Translations under genes and position numbers: made by a program
Source of the DNA: Streptococcus sp. 29896
Lineage (GTDB): Bacteria; Bacillota; Bacilli; Lactobacillales; Streptococcaceae
Direction of reading: 5' to 3'
Assembly (NCBI RefSeq): GCF_032594915.1
Contig: NZ_CP118733.1
Location: 2,069,008 to 2,133,007, forward strand
DNA length: 64,000 nt
The notes under the pieces: generated by a model
What the model was told of the DNA's origin: nothing
Database searches by the model: none
Seen by the model: the letters and a program-made list of their open reading frames with translations, nothing else
Part shown: positions 8,368 to 14,588 of the stretch, piece after piece
How positions within the stretch are numbered: the stretch's first letter is position 1
Layout of the letters: the number at the start of each line of letters is the position of its first letter

Positions 8368-9279
8368 TTATGGCAAGATGTTGCCGGCACTTCTATAAAT
8401 CTCGTACCATTCTGGTCTAGTTAGGGTAATCTGGCTTGCTTGAGCAATCTTTCTCAGGCGATCTGGATTCATAGAGCCAACAATGGTTTGAATTTTAGAT
8501 GGATGTCTCAAAATCCAAGCTACGACAATGGTTTCATGTGAAACATGGTACCGCTCTGCTATTTCCCCAAGGGTCTGATTAAGGGATGCATAGTCAGGGT
8601 GGTTGGCGAAAATCCCCTGCTGCAAGTCAATCAGGAAGGGAGACCAGGCCTGAATGGTAATCTTTTTTAGTTGACAGTAGTCGATGAGGCCGCCATCCCG
8701 CATGGTCGCCGCATCATCTTTCATATTGACGTGAAGCCCCGCATCAATCAAAGGCGTGTGGGCAGGGGATAGTTGGAGTTGGTTGACCGCTAGGGGCTGG
8801 TCTAGATAGGACTGGAGCAACTCCATTTGGTATATGTTCTGGTTGCTGACTCCAAAGTGTCGGACCTTGCCTGATTGCTTCAAGAAACGGAAGGCTTCTG
8901 CCACTTCCTCTGCTTCCATAAGGGCATCTGGTCGGTGGAGGGCCAAAACATCCAGATAGTCCGTTCCCAGCCGCTTGAGAATGCCGTCCACAGACTCCAA
9001 GATGTAATCCTTGGAAAAGTCAAAATAGCCCTTACGAATGCCGCATTTTGACTGGAGAATCATGTCCTCACGCTTGAGTCCTGCCAACTTGGCTCCCTGA
9101 GAAAAGCGGATTTCTGACTCACCGCCGCCATAAATATCGGCATGGTCAAAGAAGTTAATTCCCTGCTCCACCACGGTTTCTAATACCTTAGCCGTTTCTT
9201 GCTCGCTTAAGCTGGCCATTCGCATACAGCCCAGACCAATCCGCGATACTTCCAATCCTGTTTGTCCTAATTGTTGCAT
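8368..9279 (-). CDS. Aldo/keto reductase (YdhF-like)
   Basis: NADPH-dependent oxidoreductase of 303 residues in the (beta/alpha)8 aldo/keto reductase family. The catalytic Asp-Tyr pair is in NFFDHADIYGGGESE, the Lys in LQSKCGI and the His in LALHRPD; the C-terminal cofactor-binding segment IVGSMNPDRLRKI follows. Length and motifs resemble YdhF/Tas-like bacterial members; the physiological substrate cannot be told. The start ATG at 9279 has GGAGG nine bases upstream. The upstream terminator at 9313-9339 separates it from the DUF4956 gene. Confidence 0.9.
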   Translation of the reverse strand: MQQLGQTGLEVSRIGLGCMRMASLSEQETAKVLETVVEQGINFFDHADIYGGGESEIRFSQGAKLAGLKREDMILQSKCGIRKGYFDFSKDYILESVDGILKRLGTDYLDVLALHRPDALMEAEEVAEAFRFLKQSGKVRHFGVSNQNIYQMELLQSYLDQPLAVNQLQLSPAHTPLIDAGLHVNMKDDAATMRDGGLIDYCQLKKITIQAWSPFLIDLQQGIFANHPDYASLNQTLGEIAERYHVSHETIVVAWILRHPSKIQTIVGSMNPDRLRKIAQASQITLTRPEWYEIYRSAGNILP

Positions 9280-9312
9280 GTGATTGCCTCCTATTCTGAC
9301 TTCATTATATAC

Positions 9313-9339
9313 GAAAAAAGAGATTGTTGCCAATCTCTT
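9313..9339 (-). terminator. Terminator after the VTC-DUF4956 operon
   Basis: Perfect stem AAGAGATTG / CAATCTCTT with a four-base loop, followed on the minus strand by TTTTTT. It begins at the stop codon of the DUF4956 gene, so it closes that operon. Confidence 0.85.
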
Positions 9340-10024
9340 ACAAGGTTTTTTTCTTTTGTGCCAGCTTGCTAATATTGATTTCAATGTCTTCATTAATTGC
9401 CAAAAGACGGTCAATGACTTGCTTGTCTGTTAGAGAAGCATCCAAATCAACATTGTAGGATAATTCCAACGTGTTGGATTTTTTTACGTTTTTAATGCCA
9501 ACTAGCTCGACATACTTGCAGGCATTGACGAAAGTCGCTTCGAATAAAAGCTCGTAATCCAAATCTCGGGGAACACGTATGGTAATTTGCCGTCTTGTTT
9601 GACTCACCCTTGCAAAGCTTGTATTCTCCAATATCAAGAGTACAAAACAGACAAAGACTGTAAAAATTACAGCTAAGACCAAAAAACCCATGCCACAAGC
9701 TAAGCCAATTCCTGTCGCAATAAACACTGATAAGAGCTCCTTAGCTCCACCTGCTGCGGAACGAAAACGAATCATCCCAAAAGTTCCTGCGATCGCAACA
9801 CTGGTTCCCAAATTGCCATTGACCATAAAAATAATCATCGCCATCAACATCGGCAACATGGTCAGGGTAATGACAAACTCCTTTGAATAGAGGGTCTTGT
9901 GTTTGTAAACAAGCGCTAGCAAAATCCCCAATGCTAAACTAACCACTAAACTAAGAGCTAATTGAATGGGATCGGCTACCCCTGAAGCACTGTCAAAAAC
10001 ACTCTTAAACAACTGCTCTTTCAA
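9338..10024 (-). CDS. DUF4956 membrane protein, partner of VTC-domain protein
   Basis: A 228-residue protein with hydrophobic helices at about residues 18-40, 50-70, 75-90 and 105-135, the family core GTFGMIRFRSAAGGAKELL, and a soluble C-terminal domain of about 90 residues. DUF4956 genes are commonly found beside VTC-domain polyphosphate-polymerase-like genes, as here; the function is not established. It starts at a TTG with GGAG seven bases upstream, and overlaps the end of the VTC gene by 20 bases, implying coupled translation. A role as membrane partner or polyphosphate-linked channel is inference. Confidence 0.82.
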   Translation of the reverse strand: MKEQLFKSVFDSASGVADPIQLALSLVVSLALGILLALVYKHKTLYSKEFVITLTMLPMLMAMIIFMVNGNLGTSVAIAGTFGMIRFRSAAGGAKELLSVFIATGIGLACGMGFLVLAVIFTVFVCFVLLILENTSFARVSQTRRQITIRVPRDLDYELLFEATFVNACKYVELVGIKNVKKSNTLELSYNVDLDASLTDKQVIDRLLAINEDIEINISKLAQKKKTL

Positions 10025-10748
10025 CTAATTTCTCCTCTGCTAACTCTTCTTCCAATTTTGTGTGTGCTGTTCCATATTTTGAAAATGAAACTCTTTCCAA
10101 GCCATACTTATCGATGATGGCCTGTAACCAGGTTGGGTAGACTTCTGGAACCTTGATTTCCATAATAACCTGATTTTCATCCAACAATGGGTAACCATAC
10201 TTTCCTGCAAACAAGCTAACATCGTATGGACGATATAGAATATTTTGATCAATCGTCACGCGCACCTTCTTATCCTCAATGCCCTTCATAGAAAAACGAT
10301 CATAGTAGATATACATCATTGGCTCAATTTTTCCATAGCGTGCTCGCAATTCTGCCATTGTTTCCAATAGTGTCGGATTGGTAATCGTTTCATCCACAAT
10401 CGAATGATGAATAAAATCCAAAACCGATTTTGGACGAGAAGTCAACCGATCCTTCAATCCTACGCCATTTTCTTTTTTCTTAATTTCTAAAAATACCTGA
10501 CTATCTTCTGTCGGATAGGCATCATAGGTCCGCATCCGAATTTTTTCCCGTTTCCACAATCTCTCTGCAGAATCTTGGATCATTTGATAGCTTGGGGTAT
10601 CAAAATAAATATTGGAAATGGTAGAGGTTGGATAGTCATCTTCCACTAAATGATTTTTAAAATCATCTAAAACTGCTGCAAGCTGCTTACGGTCTAAAAT
10701 ATACTTGGTTTCAATTCGTTTAAATTTGGTTTCTACTTTCTTCGACAT
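10005..10748 (-). CDS. VTC-domain (polyphosphate polymerase-like) protein
   Basis: A 247-residue protein resembling the catalytic VTC domain that makes polyphosphate from ATP inside a tunnel. The visible family features are ETKYILDRKQL at the start, SNIYFDTPSYQMI, basic KREKIRMRTYD, acidic VFLEIKKKENGVGLKDR and the late acidic VIMEIKVPEVYPTWL. These alternating basic and acidic strands are what the tunnel fold requires. No membrane segment is present; the next gene supplies one. A good AAGGAG precedes the ATG. The promoter at 10762-10790 carries a BlaI-type operator. Polymerase activity is inferred from the family. Confidence 0.85.
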   Translation of the reverse strand: MSKKVETKFKRIETKYILDRKQLAAVLDDFKNHLVEDDYPTSTISNIYFDTPSYQMIQDSAERLWKREKIRMRTYDAYPTEDSQVFLEIKKKENGVGLKDRLTSRPKSVLDFIHHSIVDETITNPTLLETMAELRARYGKIEPMMYIYYDRFSMKGIEDKKVRVTIDQNILYRPYDVSLFAGKYGYPLLDENQVIMEIKVPEVYPTWLQAIIDKYGLERVSFSKYGTAHTKLEEELAEEKLVERAVV

Positions 10749-10761
10749 ACTATTCTCCTTT

Positions 10762-10790
10762 TTTCTATATTTGTCGTTTTATTGTGTTAA
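10762..10790 (-). promoter_or_regulatory. Promoter of VTC-DUF4956 operon with BlaI-type operator
   Basis: Minus-strand TTAACA (10785-10790) and TAGAAA (10762-10767) are 17 bases apart. The spacer contains CGACAAATATAG (10765-10776), one base off the operator seen before pepSY and blaI, in the same position relative to the -10. The -35 overlaps the end of the pepSY gene. Confidence 0.65.
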
Positions 10791-11375
10791 GAGAAGAGTG
10801 GTTTCCCACTCCTTGTGACATTTATCTATTTCCAGCTTTTTTGCTTCCACTTTTTTCTTCATAATTTGACCGGTTATTCCGTTAATCTTGTAATCAAATT
10901 CGGAGTTATTCGTAACAACCTCAATTTCATACATCCCTTTTTCAAGGTCAACTTCTTTAAATTGTACATTATTGGCTGCCTGGTCTAAATCTTTCAGCAC
11001 AAGTTTTTTCACTTGCTCAACAGTAAGAGTTGGCAAAGCAGAAGCATTTTGGGGCTGTGGGGTCACTACTAGATTTTTGGGGGAACTGGTGGTTTTAGCG
11101 ACTTGTGATTCTATCTTTTTCTTGATAACCTTCCCTGTTATTCCATCAATGTCATAATCATATTCCACATTATTGGCCACAAAATCAACTTCGTAAACAC
11201 CTTTTTCAAGGTCAACTTCTTTGAAGCGAACTTGCCTGGCTGATAAACCTAGATCCTTTAAAGCGATGGATTTTGCTGCTTCTACTGATTTGATTTGAGC
11301 AGCAGATACGGTTTGGTGCAAACCAACTGATGTTGCGACTAGTGCTGTCAATGTTAGTAATTTTAAGTGTTTCAT
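10779..11375 (-). CDS. Secreted protein with two PepSY domains
   Basis: A 198-residue exported protein: signal peptide at residues 1-26 (MKHLKLLTLTALVATSVG, cleavage near VSAAQ), then two PepSY repeats at about 28-90 and 115-180. The repeats share RFKEVDLEKGVYEVDF / QFKEVDLEKGMYEIEV and YDIDGITGKVIKKK / YKINGITGQIMKKK, so the second arose by duplication. PepSY domains are thought to inhibit or chaperone extracytoplasmic proteases. The start ATG at 11375 has GGAG six bases upstream. The last 14 residues (KCHKEWETTLLLTQ) are unlike PepSY and are encoded by a hairpin repeat also present in the leader. Confidence 0.87.
   Translation of the reverse strand: MKHLKLLTLTALVATSVGLHQTVSAAQIKSVEAAKSIALKDLGLSARQVRFKEVDLEKGVYEVDFVANNVEYDYDIDGITGKVIKKKIESQVAKTTSSPKNLVVTPQPQNASALPTLTVEQVKKLVLKDLDQAANNVQFKEVDLEKGMYEIEVVTNNSEFDYKINGITGQIMKKKVEAKKLEIDKCHKEWETTLLLTQ
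10795..10812. repeat. Hairpin repeat, copy 1 (copy 2 at 11428-11445)
   Basis: AGAGTGGTTTCCCACTCC occurs identically here, in the 3' end of the pepSY gene, and at 11428-11445 in its 5' leader. Each copy forms GAGTGG-TTTC-CCACTC. The two copies flank pepSY, suggesting a local duplication. Confidence 0.85.
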
Positions 11376-11397
11376 ATAGAACTCCAAGATGTTATTT

Positions 11398-11500
11398 CTA
11401 CATTTGTAGTAAGTAGTTTTTTAGAATAGAGTGGTTTCCCACTCCACTTTCTACATCTGTAGTATAACTATATTCTACACTTGTCGTTTTACAAAGTCAA
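11398..11500 (-). promoter_or_regulatory. pepSY promoter and leader with three BlaI/CopY-type operators
   Basis: Minus-strand TTGACT (11495-11500) and TAGAAT (11472-11477) are 17 bases apart. Operator-like dyads are CTACACTTGTCG (11475-11486, in the spacer and touching the -10), CTACATCTGTAG (11451-11462) and CTACATTTGTAG (11398-11409), the last two in the leader. They match the TACA-NN-TGTA core bound by BlaI/MecI/CopY-family repressors. The leader also holds hairpin repeat copy 2. Confidence 0.8.
11428..11445. repeat. Hairpin repeat, copy 2
   Basis: Identical to 10795-10812; lies in the untranslated leader of pepSY between operator-like dyads. It could fold in RNA as a six-pair stem with a four-base loop. 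Confidence 0.85.
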
Positions 11501-11540
11501 GTCTTATGCTTCAAATATTTTTGTCTGTTCAATTTCAATA

Positions 11541-11568
11541 AAAAAGATCAGTAGTCTCCTACTAATCT
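11541..11568 (-). terminator. Terminator after the M56 protease gene
   Basis: Minus-strand stem AGATTAGTAG / CTACTGATCT (one mismatch) with a GAGA loop and a following T6 run, 27 bases beyond the M56 stop codon. Confidence 0.8.
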
Positions 11569-11594
11569 TCTACAAAAAAGCATCTCAAACCAAA

Positions 11595-13061
11595 CTAGTC
11601 CTCCACATCCTCTGTTTCAGTATCTTCCACATCATCCGTATCAGGTTCTTCAACTGGGGGAATAGGGGTTGGGGTTGGGGTGGACTGACTACTTGTTGAA
11701 GCAGGAGTAGATACTGTTGTTTGGGGTTGATTACTTGTTGTTACAGTTTGAGTAGTAGAAGCAATTGTCGGCTGACTGCTCATTTCTGAAACAGTTTGAC
11801 TCGCTTGGCTACTACTAGTTGAGGTGGAAGAAGATGAAGACTCTGCCACTAGCTTTAGTGTCTCTTTTTCTATTTTTGTTATTGACCTACTAGCCTTATC
11901 CACTTGAACACGGTATAGAGTCTCTTCATGGGAAAATTCAATTAGGTAATAATCTCCTTGGTCACTAGCGTGGACATCAGTCACAGCTGACGCTTCGAGA
12001 GATTGGTCCCTTAGGGATATTTGAATGGCATCCTCTTGTGTAAAGGTTGCTTCCTGTGCTTGATATAATTGCGTTTCACTCATAGCCACTACAAATATCG
12101 AACCCGAGAAAATCAAGGCACAGCTAGTGACAAAAGTGACAAGAATAGCAAGAGAAGGCTTTGGTAAGCGGCTATCCATAATACCAATAATCCGACGCTT
12201 GAGATTGAACTTATTTGAGTAAAAACAGCTAGACAACAAAATCGGTTGCTGACTCTTATGAATCATGGTAATTATCGTCTCGCCATAGAAGGAGCGATAA
12301 GCCTGGTCTCTTTCATGTAGGACACTATGATCACAGTAGCTCTCTGCAGCTTCTTGAACCTCCTTACAGGCAAAGGCCACAATCGGATTAAACCAATGGG
12401 CAGCTTTTACCAGTAGAACCAAGAGATTGACATAGATATCTCGGTGGCGGTAATGAGTTAGTTCATGCTCAAAGATCAAATCAAGCTCTTCGTCCGTATA
12501 ATCTATTGCAGGAAGAAGAATGATTGGATTGCGTAAGCCAAAGAGCATCGGACTTGAGACCTGCGGATAATGGAAAAGTCGAATCGACTTCTGAATTCCA
12601 AATTCTGCTTTAATAGCTTGGAAATTAGCTAAAATACGAGCATCCGCAATTGGATTTCCCCATCGTTTCAACAAATTCCGAAATTTTACATAGGCAAAGA
12701 TTGCACGACCAATCACCACTAGGAACCCCGCCAACCAAACAAGCAAAAACAGTTCTACCCATGGTAACCCCAAGAAAAGTTCCCAAAGGCTAGGTTGACC
12801 GGTAGCTACTTCTGTCCCTGTTTGGCTAACACCTCTTGCTGCGCTTGTCGCTAGATTCTGACCATGTTCAATCGTGACCAATCCTTGTCCAAATCGTGGA
12901 CGGAAAGGAAAAATCAAGCTAACCAATAGAACCAACCAGGTCAAGTAACGAACCCGAGCTGACACACGATTTTTCAGTACGATAAAAAGCCCACTAAACA
13001 ATAAAATCAAAAATGATTTATATAAACTGATCAGCAAAAAAGACAGTAGTGCCGACGCCAT
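11595..13061 (-). CDS. BlaR1-like M56 membrane metalloprotease with PepSY-like outer domain
   Basis: A 488-residue signal-transducing protease. Transmembrane helices lie at about residues 5-28, 37-55, 102-125 and 304-327, as in BlaR1/MecR1. The cytoplasmic M56 domain carries the zinc motif HELTH (199-203) and the downstream Glu region QEAAESYCD. In place of a penicillin-binding sensor, the outer part at about 338-405 looks like a PepSY domain (FTQEDAIQISLRDQSLEASA, YLIEFSHEETLYRVQVDKAS). A Ser/Thr/Gln/Pro-rich tail with an acidic end (about 407-488) follows. It lies 25 bases after blaI. In the family, activation leads to cleavage of the paired BlaI-type repressor. Confidence 0.88.
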   Translation of the reverse strand: MASALLSFLLISLYKSFLILLFSGLFIVLKNRVSARVRYLTWLVLLVSLIFPFRPRFGQGLVTIEHGQNLATSAARGVSQTGTEVATGQPSLWELFLGLPWVELFLLVWLAGFLVVIGRAIFAYVKFRNLLKRWGNPIADARILANFQAIKAEFGIQKSIRLFHYPQVSSPMLFGLRNPIILLPAIDYTDEELDLIFEHELTHYRHRDIYVNLLVLLVKAAHWFNPIVAFACKEVQEAAESYCDHSVLHERDQAYRSFYGETIITMIHKSQQPILLSSCFYSNKFNLKRRIIGIMDSRLPKPSLAILVTFVTSCALIFSGSIFVVAMSETQLYQAQEATFTQEDAIQISLRDQSLEASAVTDVHASDQGDYYLIEFSHEETLYRVQVDKASRSITKIEKETLKLVAESSSSSTSTSSSQASQTVSEMSSQPTIASTTQTVTTSNQPQTTVSTPASTSSQSTPTPTPIPPVEEPDTDDVEDTETEDVED

Positions 13062-13086
13062 AATAATCCCCCAATTATTCTTTTTC

Positions 13087-13455
13087 CTATTTGTTCAACA
13101 ATCCCCTTAGCTCATCCAACTCATCTTCTGACAAGGCATTCGATGAGAAGAGAGTCTTCACTAATCCTCCTAAGGAGTTACCTTGGTAACGATCTAAAAA
13201 GTTTGATGTTTCAACAGCCATGTATTCTTCCTCAGAAATAATCGCTGTATAGTGGCGCTCGCGCCCATTTCGCTCACTCTTCAAAAAACCCTTTTCTGTC
13301 AGACGAGCCAAAATCGTCAGTAGGGTTTGTGGTTTCCAGTGATTATCCTCTCCTAAATGACCGATAATCTGTGCTGAGGTTACTGGGTTGGGTAAATGCC
13401 AAATGACGCGCAATACATTAAATTCCGCATCTGGCAATCGTTTCAATTCATTCAT
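13087..13455 (-). CDS. BlaI/MecI/CopY-family transcriptional repressor
   Basis: A 122-residue winged-helix repressor: DAEFNVLRVIWHLPNPVTSA, then the recognition region HWKPQTLLTILARLTEKGFL, the wing SERNGRERHYTAII and a C-terminal dimer region with the segment SSNALSEDELDELRGLL. These are standard BlaI/MecI features, and the length is normal. It is the first gene of a two-gene operon with the M56 protease, the usual pairing. Its own promoter (13482-13510) carries the same operator as the pepSY promoter, so autoregulation is expected. CopY metal-binding cysteines are absent, so copper control is unlikely. Confidence 0.9.
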   Translation of the reverse strand: MNELKRLPDAEFNVLRVIWHLPNPVTSAQIIGHLGEDNHWKPQTLLTILARLTEKGFLKSERNGRERHYTAIISEEEYMAVETSNFLDRYQGNSLGGLVKTLFSSNALSEDELDELRGLLNK

Positions 13456-13481
13456 TTGTGAAATCCTCTTTTCTTTTTATT

Positions 13482-13510
13482 ATTCTACACTTGTCGTTTT
13501 TCTTTGTCAA
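13482..13510 (-). promoter_or_regulatory. Autoregulated promoter of the blaI-M56 operon
   Basis: Minus-strand TTGACA (13505-13510) and TAGAAT (13482-13487) with a 17-base spacer. CTACACTTGTCG (13485-13496) is identical, and identically placed, to the operator over the pepSY promoter. Confidence 0.8.
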
Positions 13511-13574
13511 CAGAAATAACCTGCTTCCAGAAAAATAAAAGAAGAAAGCCCAGTTGTTCAGCTTCCTTCATTCC

Positions 13575-14588
13575 TTAATTAAATCCATAAATCCGTTTGG
13601 CAATCTTATAAACGGCGTTGGAGATCTTACGACCTGGATAGCCATAGAGATTGGTCAACTGCCCCAACAAGCCTTTGCGAACAATCTTGAAAAGGGCTGG
13701 ATTATTGTCCCGAATGTAATGCCAGAGTTCCTGCTTCTTCATCATATGCTCAACTGTTCCGCCACGGTTGAGCAGGGCACAGGAGATAATGGTGGTAATC
13801 TCCACATGATTGAGCAGATAGCTCCGCAAGTCAGGATTGGTCAACTGGTCCAGCTCCAACTGGTCCACCAAGATTTTATTGACTTTGATCTGCTGATCAA
13901 TCCGTTTGATCATGACGGATTCGTTGACAGATTGGTCATTTCGTCCGATAAAGTAGCGGTAAAAATCCACTGGCAGATAGTACATGGTCTGAACTGCCTG
14001 TAAAGGTGTAAAGACAAAAATGTTATCCACATAGAAGGTATGCTCTGGCAGGACCAGACCCACTTCTCGTAGTAAGTCTGTCCTGTAAATAAGAGAATGC
14101 ATCATCATGTACTGGCCCTTAGAGAAGGCACCCACATCCTCCCAGCCAAAAATGCGATTTTCTGGTAGAACATCCTGATAGGACATGGATTTTTTCCGTG
14201 ACTGGCCTTCTTTTTCATAGACAAAGTTGGAAATGAAGGCATCAACAGGCGTATGTTCTGCTTCCAAGACCTGTAGTTTTTCCAAAATCTTCAGATAGGC
14301 TCTGCTATCAACCCAGTCGTCTGAATCCACGACCTTGAAATAACGTCCCTTGGCCTCACGAATCCCTGTGTTGACCGCTCCGCCATGTCCCTTATTATCC
14401 TGATAAATGGCACGCACATTTGGGTAGCGGGCCGCTAAATCCTCGGCAATGGCCTGGGTCTGATCGCTCGATCCGTCATTGATAACCAAAATCTCGACCG
14501 CATCCCCGCCGATGACCAGCGAGTGAACGCAGTAGTGCAGGTAATCTTGGGCGTTGTAGCTGGGAATAGCAATGGTTAGTAGGGTCAT
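13575..14588 (-). CDS. Family 2 glycosyltransferase
   Basis: A 337-residue GT-A fold enzyme transferring sugar from a nucleotide donor. The N-terminus shows LTIAIPSYNAQDYLHYC, the EILVINDGSSDQT acidic loop, NKGHGGAVNTGIREAKG and the metal-binding VVDSDDWVD (about residue 88). No membrane helix is evident, so it is probably cytosolic or peripheral. The acceptor is unknown; cell-wall, capsule or protein glycans are all possible. Genes on either side give no pathway clue. The ATG at 14588 has GGAGAG upstream. Confidence 0.9.
   Translation of the reverse strand: MTLLTIAIPSYNAQDYLHYCVHSLVIGGDAVEILVINDGSSDQTQAIAEDLAARYPNVRAIYQDNKGHGGAVNTGIREAKGRYFKVVDSDDWVDSRAYLKILEKLQVLEAEHTPVDAFISNFVYEKEGQSRKKSMSYQDVLPENRIFGWEDVGAFSKGQYMMMHSLIYRTDLLREVGLVLPEHTFYVDNIFVFTPLQAVQTMYYLPVDFYRYFIGRNDQSVNESVMIKRIDQQIKVNKILVDQLELDQLTNPDLRSYLLNHVEITTIISCALLNRGGTVEHMMKKQELWHYIRDNNPALFKIVRKGLLGQLTNLYGYPGRKISNAVYKIAKRIYGFN

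Follow-up and report, generated by a model that had tools for sequence, protein, structure and literature searches.

A conserved BlaI/BlaR1-type gene pair and its predicted regulon of PepSY, VTC and DUF4956 genes in streptococci

Background

BlaI-BlaR1 and MecI-MecR1 of Staphylococcus aureus are described pairs of a repressor and an M56 protease. A pair of this type was found beside a gene for a secreted PepSY protein and a VTC-DUF4956 gene pair in Streptococcus sp. 29896, in a stretch of 64,000 nucleotides (contig NZ_CP118733.1, positions 2,069,008 to 2,133,007), hereafter the window. The source genome is a single contig of 2.13 Mb. Judged from sequence, the locus represents a real and conserved variant of BlaI/BlaR1 regulation with a new outer sensor architecture, occurring across many species. 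It is quite probable that BlaI represses its own operon and the pepSY-VTC-DUF4956 operon via shared sites, and that an outer signal makes the M56 protease cut BlaI. The S. aureus systems and the window locus are alike in the repressor family, the M56 core, the adjacent genes and a phenylalanine near the presumed cut site. They differ in the sensor, i.e., a modelled PepSY domain and an acidic tail instead of a beta-lactam-binding domain, and in the presumed targets, which here are pepSY, VTC and DUF4956.

An earlier note on this DNA held that the known BlaI/BlaR1 systems control beta-lactamases. This was too narrow, with the copper-linked PetR/PetP and mycobacterial BlaI as counter-examples. 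PetR-PetP of cyanobacteria is likewise of the BlaI/BlaR1 type and has a small regulon unrelated to beta-lactams (PMC7896320), but it answers to copper and controls plastocyanin/cytochrome c6, and it was likened to the window pair by description, not by sequence. A similar pattern appears in an excerpt on Clostridium thermocellum, where the regulons of two BlaI proteins comprise one to three operons and show paired sites (PMC8457756). The note's other literature claim, that a link between BlaI/BlaR1 and VTC genes is undescribed, found support: among the matches listed in open-licence papers of PubMed Central (PMC), with subscription papers outside the search, none tied BlaI-M56 to VTC or DUF4956.

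The VTC protein belongs to the catalytic-domain family of the yeast VTC complex (Vtc4), with conserved residues aligned. Unlike in yeast, a separate membrane protein, DUF4956, is the partner, and activity is predicted. In Gram-positive Pel clusters, a VTC-type gene also adjoins DUF4956, i.e., in the set of CotH, polyphosphate-polymerase-like, DUF4956 and DUF4832 genes, whereas no BlaI, M56 or PepSY is reported with them in an excerpt on this set (PMC7112168).

Operator-like sites in the window

The genes are ordered blaI, M56 protease gene, pepSY, VTC and DUF4956 on the minus strand (Table 1). Penicillinase_R, Peptidase_M56, PepSY (two stretches), VTC and DUF4956 were all over the Pfam cut-off, which supports the gene assignments of the earlier note, i.e., a BlaI-type repressor and a BlaR1-like M56 protease beside a two-PepSY protein and a VTC-DUF4956 pair.

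The full operator AAAC[G/T]ACANNTGTAGAA overlaps the -10 element of both TTGACW-N17-TAGAAT promoters in the window. In the blaI and pepSY promoters alike, the 17-mer AAACGACAAGTGTAGAA extends from the spacer across the -10. Five matches to AAACKACANNTGTAGAA with at most two mismatches were found in the window, all of them at the locus (shuffle expectation 0.27, maximum 2 in 100 shuffles). In the 2.13 Mb genome, only four matches had 0-1 mismatch, and all were at this locus. The fifth locus site has two mismatches; the 11 other two-mismatch sites of the genome are at control level (16 matches in total vs 18 for the reversed pattern). Chance operators were ruled out by the window shuffles and by the reversed-pattern controls in the genome and the genus.

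The same operator had been claimed for the promoters of three units. Five sites were found, i.e., one before blaI, three before pepSY (centre spacings of 24 and 53 bp) and one before VTC, and the 24 bp spacing of sites 1 and 2 recurs in relatives. The claim was modified in two respects. The VTC site is degenerate in the window strain, and pepSY-VTC-DUF4956 is probably one transcription unit because a 30 bp gap is followed by a 20 bp overlap. The site before VTC is intact in the same-species genome L084 and in other S. suis-clade loci.

Conservation within Streptococcus

M56 was over the cut-off in 31 of 197 Streptococcus genomes. S. gordonii is among the named species with a relative of M56. 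Approximately 17 kb around M56 were compared in 30 genomes with the window as the 31st, and L106, a decayed locus below the cut-off, was added. The blaI gene adjoins M56 in 31/31 genomes. The order blaI - M56 - (pepSY) - VTC - DUF4956 is kept in 28 of the 31, and VTC-DUF4956 likewise lies downstream of M56 in 28/31. The exceptions without VTC are L102, in which VTC is gone and M56 has full length, L104 with a shortened M56, and L105, in which a deletion fuses M56 to DUF4956. Loci without VTC thus often have a damaged M56 (L104, L105 and L106), but L102 does not. Some counted loci contain split genes, i.e., VTC in L097 and L101, M56 in L097, blaI in L086 and pepSY in L084. The PepSY gene of L077 was missed by the first BLAST and is present. 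The flanking genes differ among clades in the loci listed, and therefore the set remains linked in different surroundings.

The core GACANNTGTAGAA was found before blaI in all 32 Streptococcus loci (window and L076-L106). The exact full operator had 99 matches in 33 of 197 genomes, against 5 for the reversed-pattern control. It was present in 30/31 M56-positive genomes and in 3/166 others (G008, G102 and G193), of which G102 holds a decayed M56. Of the 99 matches, 77 are in blaI-M56 loci, 21 directly precede a DUF3642 lipoprotein gene at another place in the genome, and one is elsewhere (L187). This split was assigned by hand, and all 22 exact operators outside blaI-M56 loci were read; the DUF3642 identity comes from Pfam runs on three of the 21 lipoprotein genes, with the L190 gene, which contains an unread stretch, read in part. 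In L102, L104, L105 and L106, where VTC was lost, blaI persists, as does the operator ahead of the DUF3642 gene. The earlier note had proposed conserved linkage and operators in other streptococci as a check, and both were found in the proportions given above.

At the level of sequence, the shared-site gene set was confirmed, and the case is stronger than the earlier note had stated. One repressor-protease pair and one operator family are linked to VTC-DUF4956. The PepSY part of the proposed regulon was narrowed, with pepSY linked only in some clades.

VTC and DUF4956 could also be passengers that are neighbours by history, with the secreted PepSY or DUF3642 protein as the true target. This would fit motif-bearing blaI-M56 loci outside the genus that have only pepSY (L222) or no such adjoining target (L224-L226, L232). 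It would also fit the loss of VTC in L102, L104, L105 and L106, in whose genomes the lipoprotein gene is still preceded by the operator (L282, L185, L281 and L280). However, all 19 linked loci without a pepSY gene have sites directly upstream of VTC, i.e., three in 17 loci, two in L089 and one in L076. The set also stays together amid different flanking genes and in another family. In the VTC tree, moreover, the linked VTCs fall in few groups, with 3 label changes vs a shuffled mean of 21.8, although near-copies help such clustering. The tree was made from frames of 215-290 aa, the split L097 and L101 being left out, and one unlinked VTC, L153, falls inside the linked group of the sanguinis-like clade (a working label taken from named relatives). 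On balance, the passenger explanation is quite unlikely.

Repressor

The Penicillinase_R score of the window BlaI (Table 1) compares with a cut-off of 22.6 bits, and the protein matches MecI structures at E 1e-14. In a segment alignment, K-T-L-F (residues 100-103) falls in the region in which S. aureus BlaI is cut. Phe103 is preceded by Leu or Phe in 31/31 aligned Streptococcus BlaI proteins, an alignment that leaves out the split gene of L086. Cleavage of BlaI would probably occur at the Leu-Phe of this segment, and BlaI would bind the operator-like sites described above.

A second explanation is that BlaI answers to intracellular metal like CopY and that M56 is merely accessory. CopY/TcrY regulators share the DNA-binding family with BlaI, and the core TACANNTGTA is the cop box of CopY as given in an excerpt of PMC5772342. 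BlaI also gives 81 bits to the CopY model, but this is below the cut-off of 122. The window BlaI has zero cysteines and therefore no CopY metal site, and no CxC was found in the C-terminal BlaI segments aligned. Unlike CopY, it is paired with a protease, whose gene adjoins blaI throughout the M56-positive streptococci. CopY-type metal sensing was rejected on the score and the missing cysteines, and the metal explanation as a whole is very improbable.

Presumed sensor protease

The M56 core with HExxH is present, and the BlaR1 fold was supported by a model. By Pfam, no transpeptidase-like beta-lactam sensor domain was found in M56. The scores to the BlaR1 and MecR1 models were below cut-off (151.7 bits vs 400 and 53.2 bits vs 1200, respectively). 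On these two grounds, beta-lactam sensing through a domain of the BlaR1 type was rejected. M56 thus fails the defining sensor feature of BlaR1, and the system was therefore filed as a variant of BlaI/BlaR1 regulation. In place of the beta-lactam sensor, M56 has an acidic C-terminal tail and, according to the model, a PepSY fold.

The net charge of the last 40 residues is -9 to -15 in all 28 proteins measured, of 32 loci. The count covers M56 frames above 400 aa in the window and 27 of the 31 loci L076-L106, with L097 (split), L104, L105 and L106 excluded. The tail is present in 28/30 rows of the M56 alignment; P0072 is a partial record and P0112 has another architecture. It is likely that the tail lies outside the cell. 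The M56 loop Cys279-Phe280 aligns with BlaR1 Ser283-Phe284, and this Cys-Phe matches the presumed BlaI cut at Leu-Phe.

Presumed target genes

The VTC profile matches yeast Vtc4 structures at E 1e-10, and conserved Lys, Arg and Glu positions are aligned. In Vtc4, these positions form the polymerase tunnel. A single-sequence PDB search with VTC led nowhere, and the profile search did better. PPK1 had no match in the source genome, and therefore VTC is the candidate polyphosphate synthase. No PPK1 match was obtained in 58 of 59 sampled streptococci, the source genome included. The sole match was in G021 (L183).

The DUF4956 model has five helices and a ferredoxin-like domain (mean predicted local distance difference test score, pLDDT, 71). 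Against the MgtC/SapB family PF02308, DUF4956 scored 14.2 bits, under the cut-off of 31.4. In hhalign, DUF4956 and MgtC (22 of 24 MgtC loci used) gave 96.7 in the local mode, over the last helix and the C-terminal domain, and 97.9 in the global mode; reversed MgtC and DUF4956 decoys stayed below 1, whereas unrelated M56 gave 61.8. A PDB fold search with DUF4956 had no match at E 0.001, the best being generic ferredoxin-like rows at E 6.6e-3. These comparisons are suggestive of a possible distant relationship of DUF4956 to MgtC/SapB.

The products may also act on the cell surface. In a cell-wall stress system, the PepSY domain of M56 would read wall damage, and VTC-DUF4956 would help to modify a surface polymer instead of making polyphosphate. 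An excerpt on pneumococcal CopD, a two-PepSY membrane protein, places it in cell-wall synthesis (PMC10653890), and CotH, a polyphosphate-polymerase-like gene, DUF4956 and DUF4832 go with streptococcal and clostridial Pel clusters in the part of PMC7112168 cited above. Two unlinked streptococcal VTC-DUF4956 pairs (L162 and L165, the two tested with Pfam) adjoin lipoproteins with a Cthe_2159 carbohydrate-binding domain. On the other side, M56 is without a penicillin-binding-protein-like transpeptidase domain, and the linked VTC aligns with the Vtc4 residues. It stands apart in the tree from seven divergent VTCs, whose label "pel" means below 33% identity and does not refer to neighbours. Only S. 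suis-clade loci share the GT2 neighbour seen in the window. No CotH-like neighbour was noticed in the nine loci listed, where no profile search for CotH was made. The wall-stress explanation is rather unlikely. At other unlinked VTC-DUF4956 loci, the neighbour genes look similar to the Cthe_2159 lipoproteins.

Occurrence beyond the genus

A profile made from the M56 proteins was run on 246 genomes from the order with an E-value limit of 1e-10. It matched 36 genomes in 13 of 64 genera, and 15 stretches from 14 of these genomes were compared. In L220 and L221, which come from a single genus outside the family, blaI-M56-VTC-DUF4956 occurs together with the motif. Their genomes have one more site, ahead of a secreted PepSY gene that lies apart from blaI (L260 and L261; Pfam on L260). 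L222 comes from the same genus and shows the motif and the order pepSY-blaI-M56, without VTC at the locus (Pfam on L222), so that here a secreted PepSY gene with the motif stands beside blaI.

Genus g33 has blaI-M56 without adjoining VTC in five stretches (L223-L226 and L232). The sites precede blaI in four of them, and L223 stops at a contig edge. The four g33 M56 proteins with an unbroken frame end in an acidic tail. The M56 proteins of L223-L226, which belong to another family of the order, are approximately 650 aa long, and their tails are made of Asp-rich RYDND repeats. A single site is present in L227 and in L233. L228-L231 and L234 are blaI-M56 pairs with no motif before blaI. Two more exact matches (L266 and L267) are inside reading frames and look like chance.

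Proposed mechanism

The preferred reading is repression by BlaI and its relief by M56. BlaI would sit on the sites over both promoters and hold off the blaI-M56 and pepSY-VTC-DUF4956 operons. On an outer signal, M56, whose PepSY-fold domain and acidic tail are likely outside the cell, would cut BlaI. By homology, this proteolytic route is likely. VTC would then make polyphosphate inside the cell, helped by DUF4956 at the membrane or across it. Outside the cell, the secreted PepSY protein, or the DUF3642 lipoprotein in the sanguinis-like clade, would act, perhaps by feeding back on the sensor's PepSY domain. We infer the reading of an outer signal, the cutting of BlaI by M56 and polyphosphate as the product.

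Several observations weigh against this reading. L102 has a full-length M56 without VTC. G130 (locus L076) is M56-positive without the exact operator, and PepSY is not recognisable in M56 of L076, P0103 and P0105. At the presumed cut site, g33 has Tyr and L222 has Cys in place of Phe. In the window strain, the degenerate VTC site is joined by a C-terminus of pepSY altered relative to relatives (10779-10830). VTC occurs in 120/197 genomes and M56 in 31, i.e., VTC is widespread without M56, and the source genome has a second VTC-DUF4956 pair without operator match (L143). The g33 loci L224-L226 and L232 have blaI-M56 and the motif with no VTC beside them, the rest of those genomes not having been searched for VTC. 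Because of L102 and these g33 loci, VTC is not the sole output of the switch.

The preferred signal is a guess: the acidic tail would sense that cations of the envelope, or cationic peptides, have changed. PhoQ-MgtC provides a magnesium and peptide response with an acidic outer sensor surface. The window system would resemble it in the acidic outer sensor surface and possibly in an MgtC-like output, but the sensors are not homologous and the analogy is functional only. A full scheme can be drawn, in which a so far unrecognised proteolytic envelope sensor of streptococci and relatives reads divalent cations or cationic host peptides with its outer acidic tail and PepSY domain, M56 destroys BlaI, the VTC - MgtC-like pair makes and exports polyphosphate, and secreted PepSY or DUF3642 proteins give feedback. 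This scheme is unlikely in its entirety. If it is true, PhoQ-MgtC control would have a Gram-positive counterpart built from unrelated components.

The repression reading has a meaning for phosphate metabolism, as it would connect a switch of the antibiotic-resistance type with what is likely a pathway for a phosphate polymer. With PPK1 in only one of the 59 sampled streptococci, a VTC operon with an apparent switch of its own would offer a direct handle on polyphosphate making. The small presumed regulon, i.e., pepSY or the DUF3642 gene, VTC and DUF4956, is a starting point for finding the signal.

Features of the locus

Table 1. Genes, sites, promoters and hairpins at the blaI-M56 locus, in window positions
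Feature	Position	Strand	Basis
blaI, BlaI/MecI-family repressor, 122 aa	13087..13455	-	Pfam Penicillinase_R 98.7 bits
M56 membrane protease, BlaR1-like, 488 aa, HELTH zinc motif	11595..13061	-	
M56 residues 337-400, modelled PepSY-fold domain, predicted outside cell	11862..12053	-	model
M56 acidic C-terminal tail EEPDTDDVEDTETEDVED	11598..11651	-	net charge
pepSY, secreted protein with two PepSY domains	10779..11375	-	PF03413, two stretches
VTC-domain protein, polyphosphate-polymerase-like	10005..10748	-	Pfam VTC 158.8 bits
DUF4956 membrane protein	9338..10024	-	Pfam DUF4956 69.7 bits
Operator-like site of blaI promoter, AAACGACAAGTGTAGAA	13483..13499	-	pattern search, shuffles
blaI promoter TTGACA-N17-TAGAAT; site fills most of spacer and covers -10	13482..13510	-	sequence
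pepSY promoter TTGACT-N17-TAGAAT	11472..11500	-	sequence
Site 1 of pepSY promoter, 17-mer identical to blaI site	11473..11489	-	pattern search
Site 2 before pepSY, 24 bp from site 1, centre to centre	11449..11465	-	
Site 3, near pepSY ribosome-binding site	11396..11412	-	pattern search
Site 4 before VTC, degenerate in window strain, GACAAATATA	10763..10779	-	pattern search
Leader hairpin GAGTGG-GAAA-CCACTC between sites 2 and 3	11429..11444	-	95-nt leader folds, z -4.24
Same GAGTGG-GAAA-CCACTC hairpin at pepSY end, before VTC	10796..10811	-	86 nt, z -2.57, 3/200 shuffles as good

In the same-species L084, pepSY is split in two frames. Together with the altered C-terminus in the window, this looks like signs of decay. 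The second VTC-DUF4956 pair of the source genome, L143 (G000:C1:1197856-1198527), is beside a gene of the exonuclease/endonuclease/phosphatase family.

A search for known RNA elements in 8800-13700 found none, with one chance miRNA match at 21.8 bits vs 65. In the predicted RNA fold of the pepSY leader, sites 2 and 3 also pair. A hairpin resembling GAGTGG-GAAA-CCACTC is likewise present in the S. suis-clade loci that were inspected.

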